Part shown: positions 1 through 13,473 of the stretch, piece by piece
Layout: each line of letters starts with the position of its first letter
Position numbering within the stretch: the first letter of the stretch is position 1
Assembly: GCA_030728245.1 (NCBI GenBank)
Contig: JANQZX010000109.1
Location: 9,037-69,873, forward strand
DNA length: 60,837 bases
Source of the DNA: Saprospiraceae bacterium
Lineage (GTDB): Bacteria > Bacteroidota > Bacteroidia > Chitinophagales > Saprospiraceae
Direction of reading: 5' to 3'
Made by a program: the position numbers and the translations under genes
The notes under the pieces: generated by a model
What the model was told of the DNA's origin: nothing
Seen by the model: only the letters and a program-made list of their open reading frames with translations
Database searches by the model: none

Positions 1-1951
1 CCTTAATCTTAAAAGTATGTTGAATACCATTATTTCCACCTTCAACCTTTAATTCGGGAACATAATACTCCTCACCAGTCGGATTATCAATGGTTTTCCA
101 ATTGAAAATCCTGTTTACCTCATTTTTTAAATCCACCTGGAAAATTAACCTGGATTTATCAGGATTTTCTAAATCTGCAATGGTTACAGAAGAATTAGCT
201 AATTGATACAATTTATAACCTTCAAAGGTATATAAGCTATCCTTTGCACCTGTTGGAATTTGTAAACCACGCTGAGCATAACCCTCGAAAGCATTATTAG
301 AAGTAATACTATCATTTGTAAATACCGCGATAATTTCTCTATCCAGTTCTATAAAATCAATATCCGGCGCATCAGGTCCGTCTGTTAATTCAAAACAATT
401 ATCAAATAATGCCTGAGCGATATCATCTGCTTCGAGCAATTTTGAGATATCAGGACATGGATATGTTTGATCTGCTACCCAAACTACCCCAATGATAAGT
501 TCATTTACAGCCCCCGGATCTAATCGAAAAGGACCTGAAGCCTGAATGGTACGACGATCACCAAATGGAAGATTTGAAGTACACATCGACCAGCCCCTCG
601 AATCATTTGGTGCATCAGAAAAAGCATATTTTACCTTAGCGCCATCTTGATAAGCATCATCTCCGAAAGTGAAAGGACTACCGTCACGCCAGGAACCTGA
701 TAAATAGTTATAGTACTCTTGTGCGGTAGCGGGATCAGTGGTACCAGGAGCTGGGCTGCCAACGCCTCCATTATTATAATAAGTAAAAGAAGACATACCA
801 ATTTCTTCTCCATTTTCGTCCAAAGGACCTCTAAAATAATCTACCCCCAAAATAGGAACTTCGTCACAATAGGTATTGACTCCTTGAGGACAAGCACAAC
901 CCGTTTGACCATCTAAAGCATCTTCATTATACATATAACCAAGACTTCTGGAAACATCACAGCCAACATAATCATCAGTAAAACAACCTAAGTCAGCATC
1001 GACCCACATAGCAAAAAACATGGAATCGATACTTTCAACGGCACGATTAATGAGTTTATACCGTTGAAAAGTCATATCATTTATTTCGTCATTGGTAGCA
1101 TAAGAGAAGGCTTGCACCTGCACTTCCATCTGAATAGGGTCACCTCTCGATTCTGAGTGGATGTTACCTGCGTCATTATAGACCCAGAAAATCATTTCAT
1201 CAGGAAATTGCGGTTTTGATACACAACCCCTTATTTCAATAACTGGGAAATCACCTCTGTCCGGGTTATATAATCCATCACCATCCTGATCCCAAAATGC
1301 AGCAAGGCCTTGAGAGGTATTAGGTAATTCAAAATTATGAATATCGAAGAAGAATTCATTCCCACGAGCTGGCCAGCCTTTTATATCTCTTGGAATATCA
1401 TCTGGATTATAAGCTACCCCACTTTTCTCCGCCAGTTGAAACTTTCTTATATGCTCTCTAATATTTTCTCCTTTAACAGAGAAAAAACGATCCCAACGGG
1501 AACATATCGCTTGATTCGTTTTTCCTGTTTCAGGATTAAGCGGACCAGGCCAGAAGTCAAAATCACCTGAACTACGACCATACGTTTGGGCAGCTAACTT
1601 TAAATTACCAGCGGGATCAACGCCACCTAACCATACAGCTCCGGCAAAAATAGAAGAAACCTCAGGAAGACCAGCGGGTACTTTAGGTACAATATAACGA
1701 CCGTCATTACTGTCCCACCAAACATCCCCTCCGGTAGTTAATCGTGCTCTTACATTATTAATAGCCTGATCAATCTGAGCTACTGCATTATTACAATTTT
1801 CAGCAAATCGCAGTTTTACTGTCGTATTGCCTCTTCTTTCTTTTAACAAAGGATTATTTCTGGCAGTCATTATAACAGGAGATAAAACAACCCCCATTAA
1901 AATGCTAAAAGAAACGATGCTAATTAACCTTTTATATACCATCCTACTCAT
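1..1951 (-). CDS. Large exported protein of the T9SS-associated 'AAQTYG' type, 3' end outside the window
   Basis: An open frame of 650 codons begins at ATG 1951 and runs without a stop to the left edge, so the C-terminus is missing. A hydrophobic segment at about residues 8-30 reads as a signal peptide. The mature start carries NNVRARLTTGGDVWWD, followed by AGAVWLGGVDPAGNLKLAA and DFDFWPGPL. I recognise these as hallmarks of a widespread, uncharacterised family of very large Bacteroidota proteins usually exported by type IX secretion; that assignment is from memory of the family. DQDGDGLYNPDRGD at about residues 217-232 looks like a calcium-binding loop. The start lies only 9 bases after the stop of the TonB-dependent receptor, so the two are probably co-transcribed. 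A second in-frame ATG at 1942 is possible. The T9SS sorting domain itself cannot be seen, because it would lie beyond the edge. Confidence 0.82.
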   Translation of the reverse strand, partial: MSRMVYKRLISIVSFSILMGVVLSPVIMTARNNPLLKERRGNTTVKLRFAENCNNAVAQIDQAINNVRARLTTGGDVWWDSNDGRYIVPKVPAGLPEVSSIFAGAVWLGGVDPAGNLKLAAQTYGRSSGDFDFWPGPLNPETGKTNQAICSRWDRFFSVKGENIREHIRKFQLAEKSGVAYNPDDIPRDIKGWPARGNEFFFDIHNFELPNTSQGLAAFWDQDGDGLYNPDRGDFPVIEIRGCVSKPQFPDEMIFWVYNDAGNIHSESRGDPIQMEVQVQAFSYATNDEINDMTFQRYKLINRAVESIDSMFFAMWVDADLGCFTDDYVGCDVSRSLGYMYNEDALDGQTGCACPQGVNTYCDEVPILGVDYFRGPLDENGEEIGMSSFTYYNNGGVGSPAPGTTDPATAQEYYNYLSGSWRDGSPFTFGDDAYQDGAKVKYAFSDAPNDSRGWSMCTSNLPFGDRRTIQASGPFRLDPGAVNELIIGVVWVADQTYPCPDISKLLEADDIAQALFDNCFELTDGPDAPDIDFIELDREIIAVFTNDSITSNNAFEGYAQRGLQIPTGAKDSLYTFEGYKLYQLANSSVTIADLENPDKSRLIFQVDLKNEVNRIFNWKTIDNPTGEEYYVPELKVEGGNNGIQHTFKIK

Positions 1952-1960
1952 AATTTCAAT

Positions 1961-4900
1961 TTAAAAATCCATAATCACACCGGCAAAAATCCTTCTCGGT
2001 AAGCTAAATAACCCAGGATTTAACAATGCCCACTGGTAAGACGCCAGATAAGCATCAACCACCCTATTTGAATTTACTATATTTAGTAGCTTGTCCTGAC
2101 CATTCGAGGAAGCAAGAAAACCGTCATCCTTTGGTGATCCTGTGGAGGAATATACATTTAAAATATTTTGTTGATTGAGCAGATTTGACACCCTGCAATA
2201 AATATTCATGCTTAAACCTTTACTTACTTGAACCACTTTATCCACTCGTAAATTAATGGTATAGTTCCATGGTTTGCGAGATCCGTTAATTGAACCAGCC
2301 GTTTGAGCACCTCCTAATTCAAGAGGAGTGATTGTTGCGGTGTAAGGACGACCAGAAACAGCAATGGCCTGTAAACTAAGACCTGCATTGGCAAGGATAT
2401 CAGTACCAAAAAGATTAGGACCATTGTAAAATTTTCCTGCCCCGAACCGGTAATCTAAATTCATATTTACGCGATGTCTTTCGTCAAAATTCAAGGGAAA
2501 CAGGGTCCGAAGATTACCTCTACTTGTCAAACCTCTCTGAGAATTAGCATCTGAACCTGTACCATCAGCAAACTGAAGAGTATAATTGGTAACTAATGAA
2601 AGGTTTCCCGTTCTGCGCATTTCATATTCAAAAGAGAAACCCTTAACGGTACCAAAATCCAAATTTCCGTAAGTCGTATATTGGTTAACGATGGGCACCG
2701 GAAAATAAGTCCTTTGCTGAATCATATCTCTCAATTCCTTATAATATGCCGCGATTTTTAACTTTGAAGTGGCTGATAACTTTTGTTGAAATCCTACTTC
2801 ATAATCTATTGTTCTCTCCGGTCTTAAATCTGGATTATTTCGAATAACCGACGGAAAATCAGTGAAGTAAAAATAATCTAACGCTGTGGCCAAAGTATTT
2901 GAAGGCGGCCGCTGAATAAGTACATCGTAGTGTGCAAAGAAGTTAGCGTCATCAGAAATAGGAAAAGAAAAGGCTAGTCGAGGCATAAAATTGACCTGAA
3001 CTTCATAATCCTTGAAAGAAACAGAGGGGTCAAATGCCTTATCTTTGATGTAGTTATTTATATTTTGTGCCCGGGGATCTTTGTACTTTGGAAATACTAA
3101 TCCTCCGGAAAAGATATCTATTGGACTATTAACGGGATTACCATTTGACCTATACCATAAGTCACCATCGCGATATGCCAACACATCCGTTCCACTGTCA
3201 TTTAGATAAACTTTATAATCATCTCCAATGCTACCTGGTTTTTCAGATGTTGTTTCTGGAAGATTATGGAATTCTGAAGCCTCCATAATGTCATATAACG
3301 AATATGGGTCTTTTAATACCCTGGTATTAGCATCATATCTATCCATACGCACGCCTAACCTGAAGATAATATCTCTGAATGTAAATTTATCCTGGATATA
3401 GGCCGCAGAATAAATAGGTCTGTTCGGAGCCACGGGAAAAGTTCTTACCCCATTTTCGTCAACTGTAGAAAAAAAATCTTCAAACGTACCATCAAATGGG
3501 CGACCTAAATAATCGTGGCCAAAATAACTTATAGCATTTTGATCATTTAATTCTTTTGCCGAAAACATATCTAACCTCAACTGATCGGGATCCAACCCAT
3601 CTACATTTACAAAAGTAGTAAGGGGTAAACCCAATTCTTCTCTGATAGATTTGTAAAACTTGTTATCCTCACTGTTTACAATAGATAAAGCGCGAAGAGG
3701 TGTTTTAGGGAAATTGGGTAAATCAATATAACCTATGGTATCTGCATTGGGGGCAATACCTTGAATATGATTATTTGCCTGCTGTCTGGCGATATCCCAA
3801 AGGCCTCTCGGAATAACCGAATAACTTCTATTTAAACGCTCCTCATAAATAAACCCAATTTGTATATTATGTCGGCCATTTTTCGAACTACCTGGAATCC
3901 AGTCAAAATTAGTTCTGGCATTAAATGAATATACATCATTTGTGGACCTTCCCGCCGTATTATATACCCAGCCAACATTGGTATGAAAACCCCATGAGTT
4001 ATTATAAACAGGGGATATAAATCCGTTGGGTGCTATAAAGTTGCCCAGGGAAAGTAAATTTTGACTATTGAAAAAATTAGATAATATATATTTTCCAACT
4101 TGTGGATTAATTCCCTCTCCCTGATTAATATTTAGCGCATTATTATAATTTGAAAGCACTGGATTTTGCTCTCCAGGGGTATATTTTCTAAGTACCTGCC
4201 TGTAATCTGTATGCTGCATAGCCACGCCTTGAGAAGCTGGATCAAAGGCCAGGGCAAAAGTAGGTACCCATTCCAAATCAAATTTTCCCACATACCCATA
4301 ATCAAAATAATTAAACCCATGACGTTGGTCAGCTTGTTCCCCTGTCGTTTTTTCGTAACCTCCCTGCAAGGTATAAGAAGCATTTTGAATAGCCCCTTTT
4401 TCTGAACCAGCGCCTCCACTTGAACCAAATCTTTGTCTTAATCTAAAATTGGCTCTATACGTTCTTCCTAAACTGAACGGATTATTTTTACTATTCAGAA
4501 CGCCCCAACCACCTGGGGTAAATTGATTTTTAGCATCGGTAAGCGACCCGGTAAGCGTCATATCAATAGATTCACCTAATCGCGCATCAATTTTACCTGT
4601 CAGATCAAGCCTTTCATTCGTTTCATTATTTCTGGCTTTCAAAATATCAACATCATCGGCAAGCAGGTTATCTGCGCTTATGATGAAACTTGACCCTAAT
4701 GCGGTTACTGGATTAGCCTCCAATTCAGCTAATTTATCCTCTTTAACCCTATAAATTGAGGTAGCTGGTGGATTATCCTCGTACTGATGCGTATAACGAC
4801 CTGAGAAACGATAACCCAAAATAGATTGACCCTTTTTATTTTTCAAAATGGGGCCGCTCAGGTTTACACCTATTAAACTGTTGCTATATGGATCAAGATA

Positions 4901-5620
4901 TTTTGATGATTCAACTTCTACTCCCCCGCTAAATTTATTTGATGGCCCCTTTGTTGTGATAGAGATAATTCCTCCGGTCACATCACCATATTGAGCTTCA
5001 ATCCCCCCCGTAATTACCTGAAGCTGATCTATTTCCGATTCCGGAATGAGATTACCCTGAATTCTAATACCGTCGATATAGTAGTTTGTAGCATCGGAAC
5101 GAGAACCCCTGATAGTTATAGCTTTCCCCTCATCGGCAGCGGCTAAACCTGCAGTGGTTGCAGCTAAAGCATTAATGTTTCTGGTAGGTAATGACCGTAT
5201 TTGATCGCTCGTAATAACCGAACCAGACGTGGTATTATCTTGCTCAATCAATGGCACTTTATATTCAACTATCGTAATTTCCTGCAACACAACCCCTCCA
5301 TCAGAACCAAGTTGAATATCTAACTTAGTTGACTTTCCGGCCAAAACTTTTACTCCCGTAATCCTTCTGGAGGTATAGCCAAGGTAACTGGCCTCAACGT
5401 CATAAAGACCTGGATCCATGTCGGGGAAATTAAAATATCCCTCTACATCTGTCTCCGTCCCAGTGACTAAAACCCCATTTTTAAACAAGGCAATAGTGCC
5501 GAAAGAGATGGGCTCTTTTGACTCTTCATCGATTACCTTCCCCCCTAATGAGGTTTGAGCCTGAAGAAAAACAACCGATAAACAAAGTAGAATAAAAGAG
5601 ATAAATAGAATTCTTTGCAT
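1961..5620 (-). CDS. TonB-dependent receptor with carboxypeptidase-regulatory-like N-terminal domain
   Basis: This 1219-residue outer-membrane receptor should take up a large substrate using TonB energy. A signal peptide covers residues 1-22 and ends VVFLQAQ. A CarboxypepD_reg-like beta-sandwich follows (about 23-110, starting LGGKVIDEESKEPISFGT). Then comes a plug domain (about 125-240, with IRGSRSDATNYYIDGIRI and GGIEAQYGDVTGGIISI) and a long beta-barrel ending in VIMDF with a terminal aromatic residue. It is larger than the usual 700-1000 residues. The longer frame starts at TTG 5641. I chose ATG 5620 because it opens directly with a signal peptide (MQRILFISFILL). The gene lies 85 bases after the Rieske gene and 9 bases before the large exported protein. 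It lacks the SusC signature of the receptor at 27274-30339, and no SusD partner is present. The substrate is unknown. Confidence 0.93.
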   Translation of the reverse strand: MQRILFISFILLCLSVVFLQAQTSLGGKVIDEESKEPISFGTIALFKNGVLVTGTETDVEGYFNFPDMDPGLYDVEASYLGYTSRRITGVKVLAGKSTKLDIQLGSDGGVVLQEITIVEYKVPLIEQDNTTSGSVITSDQIRSLPTRNINALAATTAGLAAADEGKAITIRGSRSDATNYYIDGIRIQGNLIPESEIDQLQVITGGIEAQYGDVTGGIISITTKGPSNKFSGGVEVESSKYLDPYSNSLIGVNLSGPILKNKKGQSILGYRFSGRYTHQYEDNPPATSIYRVKEDKLAELEANPVTALGSSFIISADNLLADDVDILKARNNETNERLDLTGKIDARLGESIDMTLTGSLTDAKNQFTPGGWGVLNSKNNPFSLGRTYRANFRLRQRFGSSGGAGSEKGAIQNASYTLQGGYEKTTGEQADQRHGFNYFDYGYVGKFDLEWVPTFALAFDPASQGVAMQHTDYRQVLRKYTPGEQNPVLSNYNNALNINQGEGINPQVGKYILSNFFNSQNLLSLGNFIAPNGFISPVYNNSWGFHTNVGWVYNTAGRSTNDVYSFNARTNFDWIPGSSKNGRHNIQIGFIYEERLNRSYSVIPRGLWDIARQQANNHIQGIAPNADTIGYIDLPNFPKTPLRALSIVNSEDNKFYKSIREELGLPLTTFVNVDGLDPDQLRLDMFSAKELNDQNAISYFGHDYLGRPFDGTFEDFFSTVDENGVRTFPVAPNRPIYSAAYIQDKFTFRDIIFRLGVRMDRYDANTRVLKDPYSLYDIMEASEFHNLPETTSEKPGSIGDDYKVYLNDSGTDVLAYRDGDLWYRSNGNPVNSPIDIFSGGLVFPKYKDPRAQNINNYIKDKAFDPSVSFKDYEVQVNFMPRLAFSFPISDDANFFAHYDVLIQRPPSNTLATALDYFYFTDFPSVIRNNPDLRPERTIDYEVGFQQKLSATSKLKIAAYYKELRDMIQQRTYFPVPIVNQYTTYGNLDFGTVKGFSFEYEMRRTGNLSLVTNYTLQFADGTGSDANSQRGLTSRGNLRTLFPLNFDERHRVNMNLDYRFGAGKFYNGPNLFGTDILANAGLSLQAIAVSGRPYTATITPLELGGAQTAGSINGSRKPWNYTINLRVDKVVQVSKGLSMNIYCRVSNLLNQQNILNVYSSTGSPKDDGFLASSNGQDKLLNIVNSNRVVDAYLASYQWALLNPGLFSLPRRIFAGVIMDF

Positions 5621-5662
5621 CTGAGCCTTATATTTTTTCAATAGCTAAAAATAAAAGTGCAA

Positions 5663-5726: not shown

Positions 5727-6821
5727 TTAGTATTCTTGCTTATTCAATAGGTTTGAAATGATACGATGGAAGTGATGGACATTAATTTCCATGTTAACAG
5801 AATACCTTCCTCTACTATAATATCGGCCCTGCATTCCCATTTGAACAGATTCGACCACCTCTTCGTCTTCTAATTCAGTGACATCTAACTGGTTCTTTTC
5901 TCTATCAAATGAAGTTCCCTCAAAATAATATGAGCGGAATTTCACCACCGTCATTTGATGTCCTTTAGGTTCTACAACATTTAAGGATAAACCCCAGGGA
6001 TAGAAATTGAACATCAAATTTGGGAAAATCCAAAAATAATAGGCATATATTTTCTTGCCCTCATCCACATGCCCTATTGGCGTATTAAAATATGGTTCAT
6101 CGTCGGCCGCTACTCCTATTTGTAAATTACCCCATTCAAATAAATGATATTCATATTTTTCAAATTCTATGGCTTGATTCAACGCCGGATGTACAAATGG
6201 AATATGAAAACCTTCCAGATAATTGTCAACATATAACGCCCAATGCGCCCTTACATCGAAATCTTTAGAAGCATCAGGATTAAAGGTGAGGGTATGTAAA
6301 GGTAAAAATGAAACTCTATCCAACATAGGTTGAATGAAAGTGGCAAATGAAGCAAGGGGATTAATGGAGGTGAAGTACAAAGGGAAAAAAGTGGCCAGCG
6401 GCAATTGTTTCAAATGATCCCTTTCCGTTGGGAAATTTTCTGTCTGGTCAAATTCAGGCATACTTTTAAATGTCCCATTTAGTCTGAAACACCTTCCGTG
6501 ATAACCACAACGAAGTATCCGCTGTCCGGAACAGGAGGAAGAAACTACCAATTTACCCCTATGCGTACAAACATTCGATAAACAATATACCTCTCCATCT
6601 GAATCTGTGGAAAGGACAACAGGTTCATTTAAAACATCTGGTAATAAGACCATTGGCGTTAAAGTGCCAACCGGAGCCTGATCGGTATTATCCCCTATAA
6701 AAATCCAACATTTTTCCCAAATTTCAGATATGGATCGCTCAAACCACCGCCTTTCTCTATAAAAAGATGAAGGCAGTGTATCTGACTTTCTAATATCTTC
6801 ATCAATATGAAAAATCTCCAT
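5727..6821 (-). CDS. Rieske [2Fe-2S] non-heme iron oxygenase, alpha subunit type
   Basis: The 364-residue protein has the two domains of ring-hydroxylating or choline/carnitine-type oxygenases. The Rieske cluster ligands are C85-x-H87 (CTHRG) and C105-x2-H108 (CGYHGRCF). The catalytic domain has DNYLEGFHIPFVH, giving iron ligands H206 and H211, with E203 where the bridging acid normally sits. This arrangement resembles choline and carnitine monooxygenases more than naphthalene dioxygenases, but the substrate cannot be assigned. No beta subunit or dedicated reductase lies next to it. The start ATG 6821 is 5 bases after the stop of the DUF5916 gene, so the two are almost certainly one transcript. 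A PaaE-like reductase at 59073-60173 could supply electrons, but that is speculation. No signal peptide is visible, so it should be cytoplasmic. Confidence 0.9.
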   Translation of the reverse strand: MEIFHIDEDIRKSDTLPSSFYRERRWFERSISEIWEKCWIFIGDNTDQAPVGTLTPMVLLPDVLNEPVVLSTDSDGEVYCLSNVCTHRGKLVVSSSCSGQRILRCGYHGRCFRLNGTFKSMPEFDQTENFPTERDHLKQLPLATFFPLYFTSINPLASFATFIQPMLDRVSFLPLHTLTFNPDASKDFDVRAHWALYVDNYLEGFHIPFVHPALNQAIEFEKYEYHLFEWGNLQIGVAADDEPYFNTPIGHVDEGKKIYAYYFWIFPNLMFNFYPWGLSLNVVEPKGHQMTVVKFRSYYFEGTSFDREKNQLDVTELEDEEVVESVQMGMQGRYYSRGRYSVNMEINVHHFHRIISNLLNKQEY

Positions 6822-6826
6822 GCCAC

Positions 6827-9271
6827 TTATGAATTATGGCTGAAAATACTATTATAATCTAAGAAATAAATCATTTTCAGTGAAATAATATTTCTTTGTG
6901 GGTTTTCAAATAATCCATCCAGATTTGACCAATAATCAAGATCCGTCCTTTGTTGATTTTCCAAAATACTATTTTTCCAAACAACGTAAAGATCACTTCC
7001 AGGTGCAAACCGCCATCTGTAGATCATATCAATATTGAAAGCATTGAAATTGGCATTATGATTACCTTTATAATCTGTTGGAGCTAAGGTTCCATTTAGA
7101 TTTAGCATGGCAAAATTATCATAAGCTACTTTGGACCAATAATGCCTCATTCGGAAGGTCAATGACATGGTTGGAGTAAAATTATAAGCGGCAAACAAAG
7201 AGTTTTCCACCGTGGAAATATCCCTTATTCCAAAAATGATATCCTTCTCATCTGCATTTTTCGATACCTTATTTACGAAACCCACATCATTTGAAAAGAA
7301 ATTAACCGCGGTGTTAAATGAAAAATTGAATTGATCACTCACTCTCCAACGAGGTCCTATTGAAAATCTGAAAGTGTTTCTATCTTCTTCATCAAAATAC
7401 CTAAACCTTAAATTAGTTGTCAATAAAACCTCCTTTCGACTGTCGGTTGAAAGAAACATACCTACTCCCCGGTTGGTTGGATAACGATAGAAACGCCCAA
7501 CCGTTCTTGGCTCAAAATAATCGAAGGTTGCCCAGGGTTCCATAGAAACCCACGCATTCATTTCCCAGAATTTCTTCGTTTGTCCCCAAACATATACATC
7601 GCCACCTGCGTCATTGAAAACAAAAGGTTTATATAATCTCATATATCGCCATTCGGCGCCAGCACCATATCTGTTAAATATACCCCAGGGCTTCAATACT
7701 TTGTAGTTCAACTCCCCCTGAAGGCTTCTCTCATTATTATTAAATAAAAATCCAAGGTCTTTAGGGTCGTAAGTATTGCTCTCTTCGTTGTAAGCAATAT
7801 CAAAGGTAAATGCTCCTCCATTTTTTGCTATTTTAAAAGCGTAGGTATGCCCAAAATCCGCTTTTCCTATGAAATACTTTTGAGAAAGCGCCCCATTTCC
7901 ACTAAATGAATAGGCATTATCTTTTGTCCTTAGGTCAAATTCCATGGCAGAGACATTCGCATCATAGTCTTCACCAAACCGATAAACGGTGGTATTTATA
8001 AAACTTAGATAGGAGTTATTTTTTAAATTCTGGTCTAAAACAAAAATATTATAATTTGTTAATGGATCCGTTTCTACATTTCTTTCCTCCCCATTTTCCC
8101 TTTGAATAGTAGCATAAGATTTCAAGGACGTAGCATTAAATAGGCCCAATCCCAGGCCCGAAGGGGTTCGACCTGAAATTTTTGTTGCATTCACGATTTT
8201 CCCTCTTTGAGGATTATTCAATACTTTTTCACCCGGCAACAAACCTTCATAAGCTTTACCGTAATTTAAAGGGGTGCCACCAATTCGGCGAGAGTAAAAA
8301 ATATTCCCTTTGTTGAATAACTCGGTTCCTTCCGTAAAAAACTGTCTGTTTTCATCAAATCTAACTTCAAAAGGCGTCAGATTGAGCACTTGATTATCTG
8401 ATTGTGCCTCCCCAAAATCAGGAATCAACGTCATATCTAAGGTAAAAGCATCATTGATACCATATTTAATGTCCATACCTCCGCTAAATGAGGAACCATA
8501 AGCATTTTTTTGAGCTGCCGCCTTGTCTGTAAACTGTTGTCCGTAAACCGCAAAAAATGGCGTAGCCTGCAAACGTATTGGTGAAGAAATATTTTTTATG
8601 CCCGTTAAAATACCTGATTGATTGAGGAAACCAGAAATTAACGGATTAATTGTACTCCAGGATGATTTTTCCTGTTTTCTTTGATAAAGCCTTAGGAAGT
8701 TAATATGCCATTCCTGGTTTTCCTGTTTAGGAAACCTAATGGCCGAATAGGGAATTTTCATTTCAACAATCCAACCTTTGTCAGTGAAAGATACTGCACT
8801 TTCCCAAACAGCATCCCAACCGCTATCTTCGCCGTAAACGGAATATTTTACATCAAGCTGAACGCCACTTGCAGATACGATAAAACCAAGACCATTATTT
8901 CCATCCATGTAAGTATCTAAAATAACGGCAAACCAATCTGTATTTTGAATTTCATCTCGTTGCGATAACTGTTTAGGAATAGATACAGGATCACTGTCAG
9001 CGAGAAATGCGCCTATATAAAATCCTTCATTATCATATAAAACTCGTATTTGTCCATCTTCTGACGCTTTCAAACCAGGAACGGGCTGAAAAGTAACGAA
9101 ACTATCGGCAGCGACAGCCGATTGCCAGTCGTTTTCATCTAGTTTTCCATCAATTACCATTTTTCCTTCAACCCGCTTAGCTTCCATTATTTTTTTGGCA
9201 ATTGGGTCGTTGTTTTGAGCTATTAAAAAAGTGGAAATAAATAAAAGTAAATAACAATGAAGTCGAAGCAT
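6827..9271 (-). CDS. DUF5916 outer-membrane protein with CBM9-like N-terminal domain
   Basis: An 814-residue exported protein. Residues 1-18 (MLRLHCYLLLFISTFLIA) form a signal peptide. Residues about 30-210 form a carbohydrate-binding-module-9-like fold, shown by VEGKMVIDGKLDENDWQ, VLYDNEGFYIGAFLADSDP and NTDWFAVILDTYMDGNNG. The rest is DUF5916, rich in alternating aromatic strands that suggest a beta-barrel, with FDENRQFFTEGTELF and a REV/EVLLTTNLRFRYF-like strand pattern. The family is common in Bacteroidota and Gemmatimonadota and has no proven function; binding of a sugar or peptide ligand at the surface is a guess. It is the first gene of a transcript with the Rieske oxygenase. The intergenic space of 155 bases to the divergent cyclase gene should hold its promoter, but I could not pick a convincing -7 element there on the minus strand. 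Confidence 0.9.
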   Translation of the reverse strand: MLRLHCYLLLFISTFLIAQNNDPIAKKIMEAKRVEGKMVIDGKLDENDWQSAVAADSFVTFQPVPGLKASEDGQIRVLYDNEGFYIGAFLADSDPVSIPKQLSQRDEIQNTDWFAVILDTYMDGNNGLGFIVSASGVQLDVKYSVYGEDSGWDAVWESAVSFTDKGWIVEMKIPYSAIRFPKQENQEWHINFLRLYQRKQEKSSWSTINPLISGFLNQSGILTGIKNISSPIRLQATPFFAVYGQQFTDKAAAQKNAYGSSFSGGMDIKYGINDAFTLDMTLIPDFGEAQSDNQVLNLTPFEVRFDENRQFFTEGTELFNKGNIFYSRRIGGTPLNYGKAYEGLLPGEKVLNNPQRGKIVNATKISGRTPSGLGLGLFNATSLKSYATIQRENGEERNVETDPLTNYNIFVLDQNLKNNSYLSFINTTVYRFGEDYDANVSAMEFDLRTKDNAYSFSGNGALSQKYFIGKADFGHTYAFKIAKNGGAFTFDIAYNEESNTYDPKDLGFLFNNNERSLQGELNYKVLKPWGIFNRYGAGAEWRYMRLYKPFVFNDAGGDVYVWGQTKKFWEMNAWVSMEPWATFDYFEPRTVGRFYRYPTNRGVGMFLSTDSRKEVLLTTNLRFRYFDEEDRNTFRFSIGPRWRVSDQFNFSFNTAVNFFSNDVGFVNKVSKNADEKDIIFGIRDISTVENSLFAAYNFTPTMSLTFRMRHYWSKVAYDNFAMLNLNGTLAPTDYKGNHNANFNAFNIDMIYRWRFAPGSDLYVVWKNSILENQQRTDLDYWSNLDGLFENPQRNIISLKMIYFLDYNSIFSHNS

Positions 9272-9426: not shown

Positions 9427-12400
9427 GTGAGCATTATTGTACCCGACTTTATACTTGACGTATTTAAAAAAGAAAGATTCCATGGAGATTTGGATTCCTG
9501 GATCATGTACATTGATCTCACGGGATTTACCCCTCTAACGGCCTCCCTTTTGCAAGATGCGGGGGCTGGGGCGGAGGAGGTTTCAGATTTATTAAATGAT
9601 GTTTTCTCTCCTTTGGTAGATATTGTTTATCAGCACGGAGGCTTTATCCCTCATTTCGCGGGAGATGCATTTTTTGCCATTTTCCCAAAATCGACCACTG
9701 ATATATATGTTTTCACCGTGGCTGTTAAAAAAGTTCACGCTCATTTTAGGACAAAAAACGCAAAAAACAGGTCACTTCCTGTAAGTGTCAAGATTGGTTT
9801 AGACGTGGGAATACTCACTTGGGGAATTGTAGGAAAGGAACCCTATTCCTACTACTTTAGTGGTGAAGTTCTCAGAAATAGTGCTATTTGTCAACAAAAA
9901 GCAAGATTTCAGGACGAGGGCATCGTTTTTACCTCCAGTGTACGCGATTATTTTGAAACCATTGATCTTCATTCCGAGTCCATTGAAGAAAATTTTTATA
10001 CCTGGAAGTCGTCAGAATTAAAAAAAATCAAATTAAAGGAGGGATTAATAAAGACTAAAAAAAATACATCGCTTCTTGTTTCTGATAGTTCTCCCTTTCT
10101 ATCTCCTGTTTTTTCCCGACACATTCCTTCAGGAGAGTTTAGGTCCTGTATTGCTATTTTCATTGGCTTTACTCCCTCTGGGGACAAACAAATTTTTTCA
10201 GATTTCCTAAGTCAGATGGTCAAACATATCAATGAATATGGGGGCTACTGCAAAGAATTTGATTTCAGTGAGGAAATTCCCTGGTTAATTACCTTTTTCG
10301 GTGTTCCCCTCGCTTTTGAAAACCAGCTGGAACGGGCATTAAATTGTATTCACAGTCTTTTTCGTGACTTAAGAGAAATGTATGCGCCATTTGGAATAAA
10401 AATGAAAGCTGCCGTGACCAGCGGAACAGGCTATACTGGATTTATTGGCGGTAAAGAAATGCAACAATATAGTGTGGTAGGAAATTTTGTGAATCTTGCA
10501 GCAAGAATGATCAATCAAGCTCAATGGGGAGAAATAAGAACGGACAGGCAAATAGCACAATCGGACTTTTTCCTATTTGAAATAGCTGGTGAGATTAGTT
10601 ATAAGGGAATGCTTGAACCCGTAGAAACATTTCTTTTAAAAAATCAAAAGCCTGAAGGATTTCAAAAATTTCTGTACCCGCTGGTGGGAAGAGATCATGA
10701 AATGCGGGTCCTCCAAACTGAATTCAACAAACTTTTATCGACCAAAACCGGTCAGATTATTATTATTTCTGGCGATCCCGGGGTAGGTAAGAGTCGTCTT
10801 GTTGGCAGTTTAAGAGAAGAAACCATAAGAAATGGCAAGGCAAATTGGTTTTTCTGTCCATGTGATGCCGTTATAAAAAAACCATTCAATCCATTTATTC
10901 ATCTATTAAGGCATTACTTTAGTCAAAATATCAGAGGTCTTTCCAATCGGCATTATCAATATCAAAGACAATTTAAATCACTGATTAATAAGTTACATGC
11001 CATTTCCAGCACTGAGGGTTTTTCGTCTGTGGTTGCCAAAGATTTGATAGAAAAACTAAACCATTCCGATAATGCCTTTCGATTTCTGTTAGGTCTAAGC
11101 CTTTCTGCACCCGATTGGGATGATCTGGCCCCTCAAAGCAGGTATCAAATGGCAAAAGATGGCATTATTTCACTTATTTTAGCAGAATCTCTGTTACACC
11201 CTCTTTTATTACAAATTGAAGATTCCCATTGGCTGGACCCTTCTTCCAAAGAGTTACTTGTTTCTCTTTGTCAACAGTTACCCACCTTTCCAATCATGCT
11301 CGTAGTCACGTCCCGAAACGAGGCGTCAACGGAAATAAAAACATTTTTGCCCGCCAATTCCTCTTCACAGGCTGGCGTTTTTATACATCTTGAAAATTTC
11401 ACCAGAAAAACCTGTGCTCAATTTACCGAAATAATTCTTGGAAATGAGGCCAATGAGGCTCTATTAGATTATGTGGAGGTAACTACCAACAGAAATCCGT
11501 TTTACTTGGAGCAAATGGTTGAATTTCTAAAAGAAAAAGATTGGCTGACAACTTATCACGGCAAATGGACACTAAATACAGGTGAAATTGTAACTCCAGA
11601 AAAAATTGGAAATCTTCTAACCACCCGCATTGATAGTTTGAACCCTGAACTGCGTGAATTATGCAAAGTTGCTGCCGTGATAGGAAGGGAGTTTGACCTT
11701 ACCATTTTAGAAACTGTGTGGAAAGCACTTCATACCGATGCAAATATTCTTCTTACACAAATCGGTTTTATAGAAAACCTTATTAAAGCCGGGACAAGAG
11801 AGAATATTTGGCGACCGTTAACTAAAAGACGATTTTTATTTCAACACGCTTTACTTAGAGAGGCTGCTTATAATATTCAGCTGCCAGCTACCCTTCAACA
11901 GATTCATTTGCTTGTAGCTGAGGCTATTGAACTTCATTTTAAAGATCATATTGAACTGAAATTACAAGAACTAGCCTACCATTACGAGCTGGCAAATCAT
12001 ACCCAAAAAGCCAGTGAATTTTTGTATCTCGCTGCAGTTCAGGCAAAAAATAATTATTTGAATGAACATGCCCTTGGGTTTTTAGAAAAATTATTGCAAA
12101 ATATAAATTTAAATCAGCACCATCCATTCCGATTTAAAGCCCTTATTCTACAAGGTTCTATTCTAGAAATTACCGGTTATTGGGAAAGAGCAGAAAAAAT
12201 ATACCTTCAAGCCTATTCTTCCCTAAATGAGGGCTATTCCGGCGAATTAATCCCCATTCTATTTAATAATATAGGTCGGACGCAACTTTTCAAAGGGGAT
12301 TATTCGGCAGCCATGATTTCTCAAAAAAAGGCCCTTGCATACGCACAAAAAAATAATTTCCCTTCCCTTGTCCCACCAACCTTAGCCTTTTTGGGCAATG

Positions 12401-13473
12401 TTTATTTTAGAATGGGAAAATATGACGAGGCAAATTATTACTTTACCGAAAGCTTGAAGCTCGCCTCTCCGAAGGATAAAAATTATCCAACCACGCAGGT
12501 TTATGCAAAAATTGCTCTCACGCAGATGAATTTAGGTAAAAATGATCTTGCGTTAGAGACTTTAAACAAACAATTAATGCATTGCATTGAGGACAACGAT
12601 AAACTTGGTTTGGCAACCATTTATATTTATAAAGGCCTGGTGCACCTCGAAAAAGATGAAATTGAAGCAGCAAAAATAAATTTTAATGAAGGGATTGAAC
12701 TGGCAAATCAAACGGGCAACAAGCATTTACAAGCTATTGCCCTCGGAAATGTTGGCCTGATTTATGAAAAAGAAGGAGATTTTGACCGCGCGATGGCGCA
12801 ATATGAAAAAGACCTGGATTTATGCAAGGAACTAGACGACAAACAAGGCACCTCTATTGTATTATGCCTTATTGGTCAGTTACTTAATCTTAAAGGTGAG
12901 TTTATGGAAGCTATAAATCACTTACAAAAAGCGTTAACTATTAGCGAAATGCTAGGTTTCCAAAAAGGAATGGCAAAAGCGTTAAATACCTTGGGCGATG
13001 TTTATTATTTCAAAAATGAATATGAGCGTTCTATCCATTTTTACGAGCGGGCAATAACGCTGACAAGAAGAATAAATAATAAACTGGTTTTAGGCTATAG
13101 TCTCTTTGAACTGGCTATCGTCTTATTGGTTGACGGGCAATATGACAAAGTCAAAGCGCTATTAACAGAGGCTTCCGACCTTGCAAACGAATTATCCAAC
13201 GACGCTTTCAAGTTCGATGTTAGACTATTGGAAGCAAAATATACCCGGGCAAACGGAGAAAAAATCCAAGCCGCTGAAATCCTCGTTCAAATGGAAAATA
13301 TGCCGTGCACCCAAGAACAAGAAGCAGAAAGATTTTTTGAATGGGTTATGTTGTTTCCCCATGAAGCAACCCTGCGAGAAAATGCTAAAAATAAATACCA
13401 TTCTTTGCTGGATATGACGCCAAAGTATATTTATAAAGAACGGCTAAGAATTTTAAACACTTATATAAACTAA
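9427..13473 (+). CDS. Tandem class III cyclase domains + AAA/STAND ATPase + TPR protein, soluble adenylyl cyclase-like
   Basis: A 1348-residue cytoplasmic signalling protein with no signal peptide or membrane span. The first cyclase domain (about 25-200) keeps the two metal aspartates D30 (IDLTGFTP) and D80 (FAGDAFF) but has lost the Asn/Arg pair. The second (about 230-400) lacks those aspartates but keeps K276 (adenine-site lysine position), S349, and N356 and R360 in VGNFVNLAARM. One composite site at the interface would therefore make cAMP, as in mammalian sAC (ADCY10). A P-loop ATPase follows (GDPGVGKS 449-456; Walker B IEDSHWLD near 597), then TPR repeats from about 820 to 1330. GTG 9427 is chosen because the conserved ERFHGDLDSWIMYIDL lead-in would be cut by the next ATG (9505). 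The same domain order is also seen in bacterial regulators that sense bicarbonate or control transcription. The ligand and the cAMP target are unknown. Confidence 0.9.
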   Translation: MSIIVPDFILDVFKKERFHGDLDSWIMYIDLTGFTPLTASLLQDAGAGAEEVSDLLNDVFSPLVDIVYQHGGFIPHFAGDAFFAIFPKSTTDIYVFTVAVKKVHAHFRTKNAKNRSLPVSVKIGLDVGILTWGIVGKEPYSYYFSGEVLRNSAICQQKARFQDEGIVFTSSVRDYFETIDLHSESIEENFYTWKSSELKKIKLKEGLIKTKKNTSLLVSDSSPFLSPVFSRHIPSGEFRSCIAIFIGFTPSGDKQIFSDFLSQMVKHINEYGGYCKEFDFSEEIPWLITFFGVPLAFENQLERALNCIHSLFRDLREMYAPFGIKMKAAVTSGTGYTGFIGGKEMQQYSVVGNFVNLAARMINQAQWGEIRTDRQIAQSDFFLFEIAGEISYKGMLEPVETFLLKNQKPEGFQKFLYPLVGRDHEMRVLQTEFNKLLSTKTGQIIIISGDPGVGKSRLVGSLREETIRNGKANWFFCPCDAVIKKPFNPFIHLLRHYFSQNIRGLSNRHYQYQRQFKSLINKLHAISSTEGFSSVVAKDLIEKLNHSDNAFRFLLGLSLSAPDWDDLAPQSRYQMAKDGIISLILAESLLHPLLLQIEDSHWLDPSSKELLVSLCQQLPTFPIMLVVTSRNEASTEIKTFLPANSSSQAGVFIHLENFTRKTCAQFTEIILGNEANEALLDYVEVTTNRNPFYLEQMVEFLKEKDWLTTYHGKWTLNTGEIVTPEKIGNLLTTRIDSLNPELRELCKVAAVIGREFDLTILETVWKALHTDANILLTQIGFIENLIKAGTRENIWRPLTKRRFLFQHALLREAAYNIQLPATLQQIHLLVAEAIELHFKDHIELKLQELAYHYELANHTQKASEFLYLAAVQAKNNYLNEHALGFLEKLLQNINLNQHHPFRFKALILQGSILEITGYWERAEKIYLQAYSSLNEGYSGELIPILFNNIGRTQLFKGDYSAAMISQKKALAYAQKNNFPSLVPPTLAFLGNVYFRMGKYDEANYYFTESLKLASPKDKNYPTTQVYAKIALTQMNLGKNDLALETLNKQLMHCIEDNDKLGLATIYIYKGLVHLEKDEIEAAKINFNEGIELANQTGNKHLQAIALGNVGLIYEKEGDFDRAMAQYEKDLDLCKELDDKQGTSIVLCLIGQLLNLKGEFMEAINHLQKALTISEMLGFQKGMAKALNTLGDVYYFKNEYERSIHFYERAITLTRRINNKLVLGYSLFELAIVLLVDGQYDKVKALLTEASDLANELSNDAFKFDVRLLEAKYTRANGEKIQAAEILVQMENMPCTQEQEAERFFEWVMLFPHEATLRENAKNKYHSLLDMTPKYIYKERLRILNTYIN

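Follow-up and report, generated by a model that had tools for sequence, protein, structure and literature searches.

A conserved gene triad encoding a TonB-dependent receptor, a giant exported protein and a PorV-family barrel in Saprospiraceae and other Bacteroidota, with a putative role in surface capture and uptake

At the left end of a 60,837-nucleotide stretch of DNA from a Saprospiraceae bacterium (GenBank assembly GCA_030728245.1, a genome of 3.9 Mb in 157 contigs; contig JANQZX010000109.1, here C109, positions 9037-69873; this whole stretch is henceforth the window) lie the genes for a TonB-dependent receptor and a giant exported protein, and just outside the window they are joined by a third gene, coding for a barrel of the PorV/PorQ family. 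We find that this triad is conserved across the order and recurs in other classes of the phylum, that its barrel belongs to a clade of its own, and that its exported protein ends in a C-terminal domain of the type IX secretion system (T9SS) type whose nearest structural relative is that of PorZ. It is probable, in our assessment, that the three genes encode a single outer-membrane complex, in which the receptor is partnered by the exported protein, itself anchored at the surface by its private barrel; the physical complex, the retention of the C-terminal domain, uptake and a glycan-type ligand are inferred. The finding is real and larger than first stated, with its function put forward as a supported hypothesis. 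The components of the unit are as follows, with coordinates counted within the window unless marked C109.

2..1951, minus strand: exported-protein gene, N-terminal 650 amino acids; open reading frame (ORF) cut by the window edge, with a signal-peptide-like start (by eye) and a beta-supersandwich region
1952..1960, minus strand: spacer of 9 bp between the receptor and exported-protein genes
1961..5641, minus strand: TonB-dependent receptor, 1226 amino acids; TTG start, internal ATG at 5620; CarboxypepD_reg, Plug and OMP_b-brl_3 domains
C109:5791-6837, minus strand, outside the window: PorV/PorQ-family gene of the unit, 348 amino acids; match to NF033709

A preliminary description, made from the letters of the window, had reported the receptor and exported-protein genes as adjacent and 9 bases apart, and both ORFs are confirmed, with the receptor boundary placed there at 5620 being the internal ATG of an ORF that reaches 5641. 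Immediately to the left of the window, and inside the exported-protein gene, 100 N occupy C109:8937-9036, and an identical 55-bp overlap flanks them on both sides (L003:8882-9091); this gap is an artefact of scaffolding, which interrupts the gene and creates the window edge. The frame runs on past it to C109:6858, and in a genome of the same genus the gene is whole, as an ORF of 1324 residues with 99% identity across the 650 residues in the window. The two halves of the gene on either side of the gap were analysed separately. A further 20 bp separate the exported-protein gene from the PorV-family gene, which was found where a PorV/PorQ-like gene had been predicted beyond the left edge and matches the PorV/PorQ family model NF033709 with 117.8 bits, above its cut-off of 90. 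Downstream of it come greA and the gene for a HIT protein (L003:4733-5615).

Of 298 genomes of the order, its own included, 194 have the exported protein. The earlier claim of many paralogues in the lineage holds as to its spread and fails in its own genome, where at the sensitivity of the search the protein is single-copy (the other match being the gap overlap); a number of order genomes list several matches. The two sequence blocks singled out before, AGAVWLGGVDPAGNLKLAA and DFDFWPGPL, are both found in the protein of the window, within conserved blocks of the alignment. In sampled order triads the receptors have about 1200-1300 and the exported proteins about 1260-1620 residues, so that both proteins are of normal size for their family and not, as had been supposed, much larger than common relatives.

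Conserved adjacency had been named beforehand as a check on the unit, and we surveyed it in three samples, all within the window's own phylum, scoring as a triad an exported-protein ORF flanked immediately by a receptor gene on its upstream side and a PorV-family gene on its downstream side. The order sample comprised 60 regions hand-picked for spread from the matches listed, short ORFs included, and yielded 64 exported-protein ORFs or pieces. Triads were seen in 55/64; the nine misses were L050 and L062, where the copy stands alone, L060, L061 and L064, each a second copy behind a PorV gene, one fragment of a split gene at L072, two fragments of another at L075 and a gene truncated at a contig end (L080). 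The named-genome sample, which may share genomes with the former, consisted of 79 loci from the best 80 matches of a contig scan, with titles mostly of Saprospiraceae, and held 84 ORFs, 68 of them in triads. Its 16 misses comprise seven ORFs that run up against a contig end, four fragments belonging to two split genes, three second copies, a single stand-alone copy and an ORF of Saprospira grandis (L175) that has the PorV gene with no receptor recognised upstream. The third sample took one locus from each of 19 genomes of other classes, with two candidates scored per genome (18 loci are best matches, and that of G298 is the second-best listed), and here the triad was found in 19/19. Two genomes of the same class could be added, one with a triad and one cut at a contig end after the receptor and exported protein. 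Median spacers within triads are 25-62 bp. Culturable bacteria with a full triad include Neolewinella (L113, L115, L132) and Membranihabitans marinus (L110).

Some loci depart from the simple arrangement. A second exported-protein gene lies directly behind PorV at L061, L105 and L141, where it is full-length, and at L060, where it is cut at a contig end. At L064 and L111 the second copy is a short form of about 840 residues, with most of the middle missing. Two consecutive ORFs, N- and C-terminal, make up the exported protein at L072 and L075, the former locus keeping both receptor and PorV.

The barrel of the triad is distinct from the known members of its family. Elsewhere, the same genome encodes a PorV adjoining a PorU of 1294 residues, a PorQ and a PorV2, each separately, and therefore the triad barrel is an extra one. 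It scores below the cut-offs of the PorV and PorQ equivalog models NF033710 (46 of 250 bits) and NF033711 (62.7 of 220 bits), is not matched by the PorV2 model NF052325 at E <= 0.1, reaches 22 bits with the PorP/SprF model TIGR03519 (cut-off 90.55) and has no sequence match in the PDB at E <= 1. In a quick tree of 74 PorV-family proteins, with four long branches that leave some placements unsure, the 41 PorVs that belong to these triads, whether of the order, of other classes or of the one same-class genome, fell on one side of a branch with a support of 99 in the Shimodaira-Hasegawa-like approximate likelihood ratio test (SH-aLRT). The canonical PorVs were grouped apart from them, with one other PorV in their midst, and the neighbours of the triad clade were ten other PorVs, several from further triads (see below). 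The triad PorV is a separate clade, apart from the PorV, PorQ and PorV2 of its own genome. The PorV2 gene of this genome, matched by NF052325 and representing a little-known member of the family, is at L199 (G000:C4).

AlphaFold models of the exported protein were built for residues 30-650 and 640-1324 (mean predicted local distance difference test scores of 85 and 83), from alignments of 37 rows made of proteins from the loci of the best-80-match contig scan. For the C-terminal half, PorZ is the sole PDB match of Foldseek below 1e-3, and the part aligned is the C-terminal domain of PorZ (Z 9.9, 91 residues, 2.8 A, 29% identity), with residues 560-678 of this model forming a T9SS-type Ig-like domain. 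The next structure alignments of the domain were with PorU (Z 8.8), mirolase (7.5), RemA (7.2) and RemZ (7.0), the last three sitting among unrelated Ig-like folds of similar Z; values below 8 can reflect a common arrangement and alone are insufficient. Fold matches listed for this half are filled by the last domain and not by the middle of the protein, between the supersandwich and C-terminal domains.

Among NCBIfam models, the C-terminal half has sub-threshold matches to PorZ, PorU and the type A sorting domain (4.9e-5, 1.2e-3 and 4.7e-3, respectively), with the full-length PorZ and PorU models scoring 22 of 260 and 16.5 of 420 bits in matches confined to the C-terminal domain. The sorting domain foreseen beyond the left edge is borne out in part: a T9SS-type C-terminal domain is there, with the structure match to PorZ, but it is no clean type A or B, as TIGR04183 (type A) gives 16.9 bits against a cut-off of 23 and no type B domain appears among the NCBIfam matches of the protein itself, 22 order members and 19 other-class members. 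At E <= 0.05, the PorZ model is matched by 18/22 of these order members, more than any other model, and by 17/19 of the other-class members, where it is joint commonest with TIGR04183 (8/22 and 17/19, respectively). Exported proteins of the main clade have about eight residues past the last strand, and their C-terminal residue is L, F or Y in 56/59, 72/78 and 18/19 complete ORFs of the three samples. Judging from these sequences, the private barrel may recognise the protein by this tail. The eleven cargoes of the further triads described below share the ending A(L/I/V)(I/V)K.

Neither half of the exported protein has a Pfam match above cut-off, the only sub-cut-off one being Lipoprotein_15 (E 0.13), and the profile of the protein has no PDB sequence match at E <= 0.1. 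Foldseek matches of the N-terminal half have E of about 1e-6 with low TM (template modelling) scores of 0.2-0.3. In structure alignments, this half matches dextran dextrinase (Z 18.1, 254 residues, 3.3 A), followed by glucodextranase and cellodextrin phosphorylase (Z 16-17), and over all such alignments Z is 16-18 across about 235-270 residues, at a sequence identity of about 10%. We take the matched fold to be the beta-supersandwich domain of GH15/GH94/GH116-type enzymes. The likeness ends with this N-terminal domain: such enzymes are defined by an (alpha/alpha)6 catalytic barrel after the supersandwich, whereas no helix-rich catalytic barrel is visible in either half model of the triad protein, both being mostly beta with short helices. 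The modelled fold would be consistent with a glycan-type ligand.

Pfam domains of the receptor in the window are CarboxypepD_reg, Plug and OMP_b-brl_3. A signalling role was considered and set aside, there being no STN-type domain among its Pfam matches; the receptor has no sequence match in the PDB at E <= 1e-6. When a profile of triad receptors was run on the same genome it returned the window receptor with 1332.7 bits and the next match with 125.8. SusC-SusD glycan uptake systems are pairs of a receptor and its partner that occur in several copies in some genomes, and the triad resembles them in co-encoding a TonB-dependent receptor bearing CarboxypepD_reg with a large exported partner, as well as in its several copies in some genomes. 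It differs in three respects, upholding the earlier view of the unit as distinct from SusCD. The receptor has no match to SusC/RagA (TIGR04056) at E <= 0.01, and that of a paralogous triad has a sub-cut-off one of 97.6 against 368.25 bits. The partner is not of the SusD type, having a T9SS-type domain and, by eye, no lipobox, since its first cysteine is residue 53. Lastly, a PorV-family barrel is part of the unit.

With the PorU-PorV and PorZ-PorQ pairs, the triad has in common a C-terminal-domain protein paired with a PorV/PorQ-family barrel, a C-terminal domain closest to those of PorZ and PorU and, with porU-porV of its own genome, the gene order of cargo then barrel. The differences are that its barrel is a separate clade, that its cargo resembles PorU/PorZ in the C-terminal domain only, that a TonB receptor is added and that the genome has PorU, PorV and PorQ besides. 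In the excerpts of the literature used here and below, PorU:PorV and PorZ:PorQ are described as sub-complexes, with far less PorZ in the membrane fraction when PorQ is absent (PMC5562754), PorU and PorZ are stated to retain their C-terminal domains (PMC11285876), and a review proposes that cognate PorV-like barrels protect this domain (PMC10202324). Because of the same cargo-barrel layout and the PorZ/PorU-like domain, we propose that the triad barrel holds the exported protein. The giant protein would be made with a signal peptide and exported by the T9SS, via its C-terminal domain, across the outer membrane. Its own PorV-family barrel would then take it over, keep the C-terminal domain and hold the protein at the surface, as in the PorV-PorU and PorQ-PorZ pairs. 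The beta-supersandwich part would serve as the surface capture partner of the co-encoded TonB-dependent receptor, in a SusD/SusC-like arrangement without a lipid anchor. Surface capture and uptake would fit the anatomy of the unit, uptake being suggested by the class of the receptor and by co-inheritance.

The T9SS link is in keeping with the distribution of SprA, which the window's genome encodes (2368 bits). Of 392 genomes sampled from the phylum, SprA is matched in 311 (310 over cut-off) and the exported-protein profile in 212; each of these 212 also matches SprA, and none of the 81 SprA-less genomes matches the profile, with the proviso that some of the 212 matches are weak or partial and that genomes are not independent.

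The barrel might instead be a secretion shuttle only. PorU would then cleave the cargo, which would be set free or joined to lipopolysaccharide, and the receptor would be an independent operon neighbour. PorV is described as acting as a shuttle in Porphyromonas gingivalis (PMC5562754), and the genome's own PorU-PorV pair and PorQ could process the exported protein. Type B cargo genes, too, are usually clustered with those of their cognate PorP/SprF barrels, according to the part of the review drawn on (PMC10202324); the triad shares this clustering and differs from it in its barrel, well short of the PorP/SprF cut-off, and in the type B sorting domain that its NCBIfam matches lack. A natural control comes from 12 other-class genomes. 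Among the matches listed there, 53/60 of those with a triad-type C-terminal domain have a PorV-family gene at most 500 bp behind them, and N-domain matches without such a domain have a PorV within 4 kb downstream in 0/64 (62 rows plus two left-out N-domain rows checked afterwards; rows matching the middle of the profile only are in neither count). Therefore, a private shuttle seems unneeded for exporting the N-domain. The ends read of N-domain proteins at L245-L247 resemble ordinary type A domains, and the one tested passes the TIGR04183 cut-off of 23 with 37 bits. The triad-type domain also precedes 0/12 of the top-scoring, PorV-type genes among the matches listed. A mere shuttle further leaves unexplained the linkage of receptor and PorV-family genes detailed below (18/19 among the matches listed), and we regard this alternative as rather unlikely. 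As an observation apart, L245 (G538:C96) is an array of eleven head-to-tail genes of about 555 residues each (one cut), with the triad N-terminal domain and type A-like ends, and no receptor or PorV was recognised in the 19 kb of this locus.

The reading as a capture-and-uptake complex also draws on further triads outside the main clade. In two other-class genomes (G325, G358), 19 receptors among the matches listed fit the barrel part of the triad type. For 18 of them the same strand carries a PorV-family gene within 8 kb downstream, and in 16 of these pairs the two genes are 2.3-4.2 kb apart, leaving room for a cargo gene. Conversely, a triad-type receptor is upstream of 11/16 and 9/15 of the PorV-family genes among the matches listed in the two genomes, and a triad-type C-terminal domain precedes 5 and 8 of them. 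From 12 genomes we retrieved twelve more PorV loci, of which eleven had been chosen for a triad-type C-terminal domain before PorV. All eleven have a receptor upstream of the cargo, with an extra ORF between the two at L237 and L241, and their cargoes match the N-terminal profile weakly; the twelfth (L244) has a receptor before PorV and no recognised cargo.

These numbers bear on another possibility, that the triad serves the structure or biogenesis of the cell surface, as a scaffold, a coat or an assembly platform, with the receptor as a barrel anchor or secretion aid and no importer. The wide presence in the order, beside greA, looks housekeeping-like, and in BamG-BamH a FadL-type barrel is described as holding a surface protein for biogenesis (PMC12578637, PMC12611786). 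BamH, unlike the exported protein, is a lipoprotein in complex with BamA and BamD; a link of the triad to the BAM complex was considered from these two papers and kept as an analogy only. Against such a unit, the receptor retains its plug and CarboxypepD_reg domains, and the several receptor-linked PorV genes in the two other-class genomes (11 and 9, with 5 and 8 PorV genes behind a triad-type C-terminal domain, as above) suggest substrate specialisation, leaving a structural or biogenesis role improbable.

Finally, the triad could reflect plain conservation of gene order with no shared function, as greA and the HIT gene also trail it in many order loci. Yet it persists in other classes, where neither greA nor HIT was recognised beside the 19 triads, and its PorVs form a clade, and its receptors a distinct group, of their own. 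Within-triad distances over 98 loci moreover correlate after removal of the GreA and HIT distances (partial r 0.72-0.83), in a test that is weak and confounded by species history and protein length. Gene order as the whole explanation appears to us very improbable.

Several observations weigh against a held capture partner as proposed here. Part of the synteny in the order is plain gene-order inheritance, because greA and HIT travel with the unit there. At a few loci (L050, L062, L159) a full-length copy has neither receptor nor PorV beside it, and six copies in one genome (G583) without a PorV of their own account for six of the seven misses in the 53/60 count. In two of the 18 receptor-PorV pairs the distance, 234 and 365 bp, leaves no room for an intervening cargo gene. 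In the same confounded distance test, the C-terminal domain follows PorV with a partial r of 0.24 once the N-terminal part is removed, and the N-terminal part tracks PorV better (0.50). The available text of PMC11285876 has the cleavable domain of mirolase as likewise closest to PorZ and PorU, and hence a PorZ/PorU-like domain is no proof of retention. Nor is a modelled supersandwich fold, by itself, proof of ligand binding.

Taken more broadly, the triad may be a further general architecture for surface uptake, in Bacteroidota and sister classes, that runs parallel to SusCD, with several paralogous triads per genome in some lineages, and in which the fate of the protein, lasting display or processing by the sortase, would depend on whether its C-terminal domain is PorZ/PorU-like and has a barrel of its own or is an ordinary type A without one; we hold this as a tentative proposal with a little less than even chances. 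It has perhaps been missed as several large sampled families are without a match or match weakly (e.g. f20, f25), and we would guess that the non-matching families include well-studied model organisms. The triad looks like an undescribed way of building a capture-and-uptake complex: no description of it was found by title or abstract in the open-licence PMC literature, which is no proof of absence in print, and the accessible part of a paper on Caldithrix (PMC5317091) has nothing on triads. If the uptake reading is true, many environmental Bacteroidota and their relatives own a surface nutrient system that is invisible to SusCD-based annotation. The excerpted 2023 review states that how the PorZ C-terminal domain stays uncleaved is not known (PMC10202324). 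Triads supply many cargo-barrel pairs together with a built-in control in the same genomes, namely N-domains with type A ends and no barrel nearby, and this question therefore becomes testable.

Two other regions of the window may be noted. Upstream of the receptor and on the same strand, positions 5727-9271 encode a Rieske-type ring-hydroxylating oxygenase and a protein with CBM9 and DUF5916. Positions 9427-13473 hold an ORF of 1348 residues, the translation of which resembles, by eye, a nucleotide-cyclase domain, an ATPase and TPR-like repeats.

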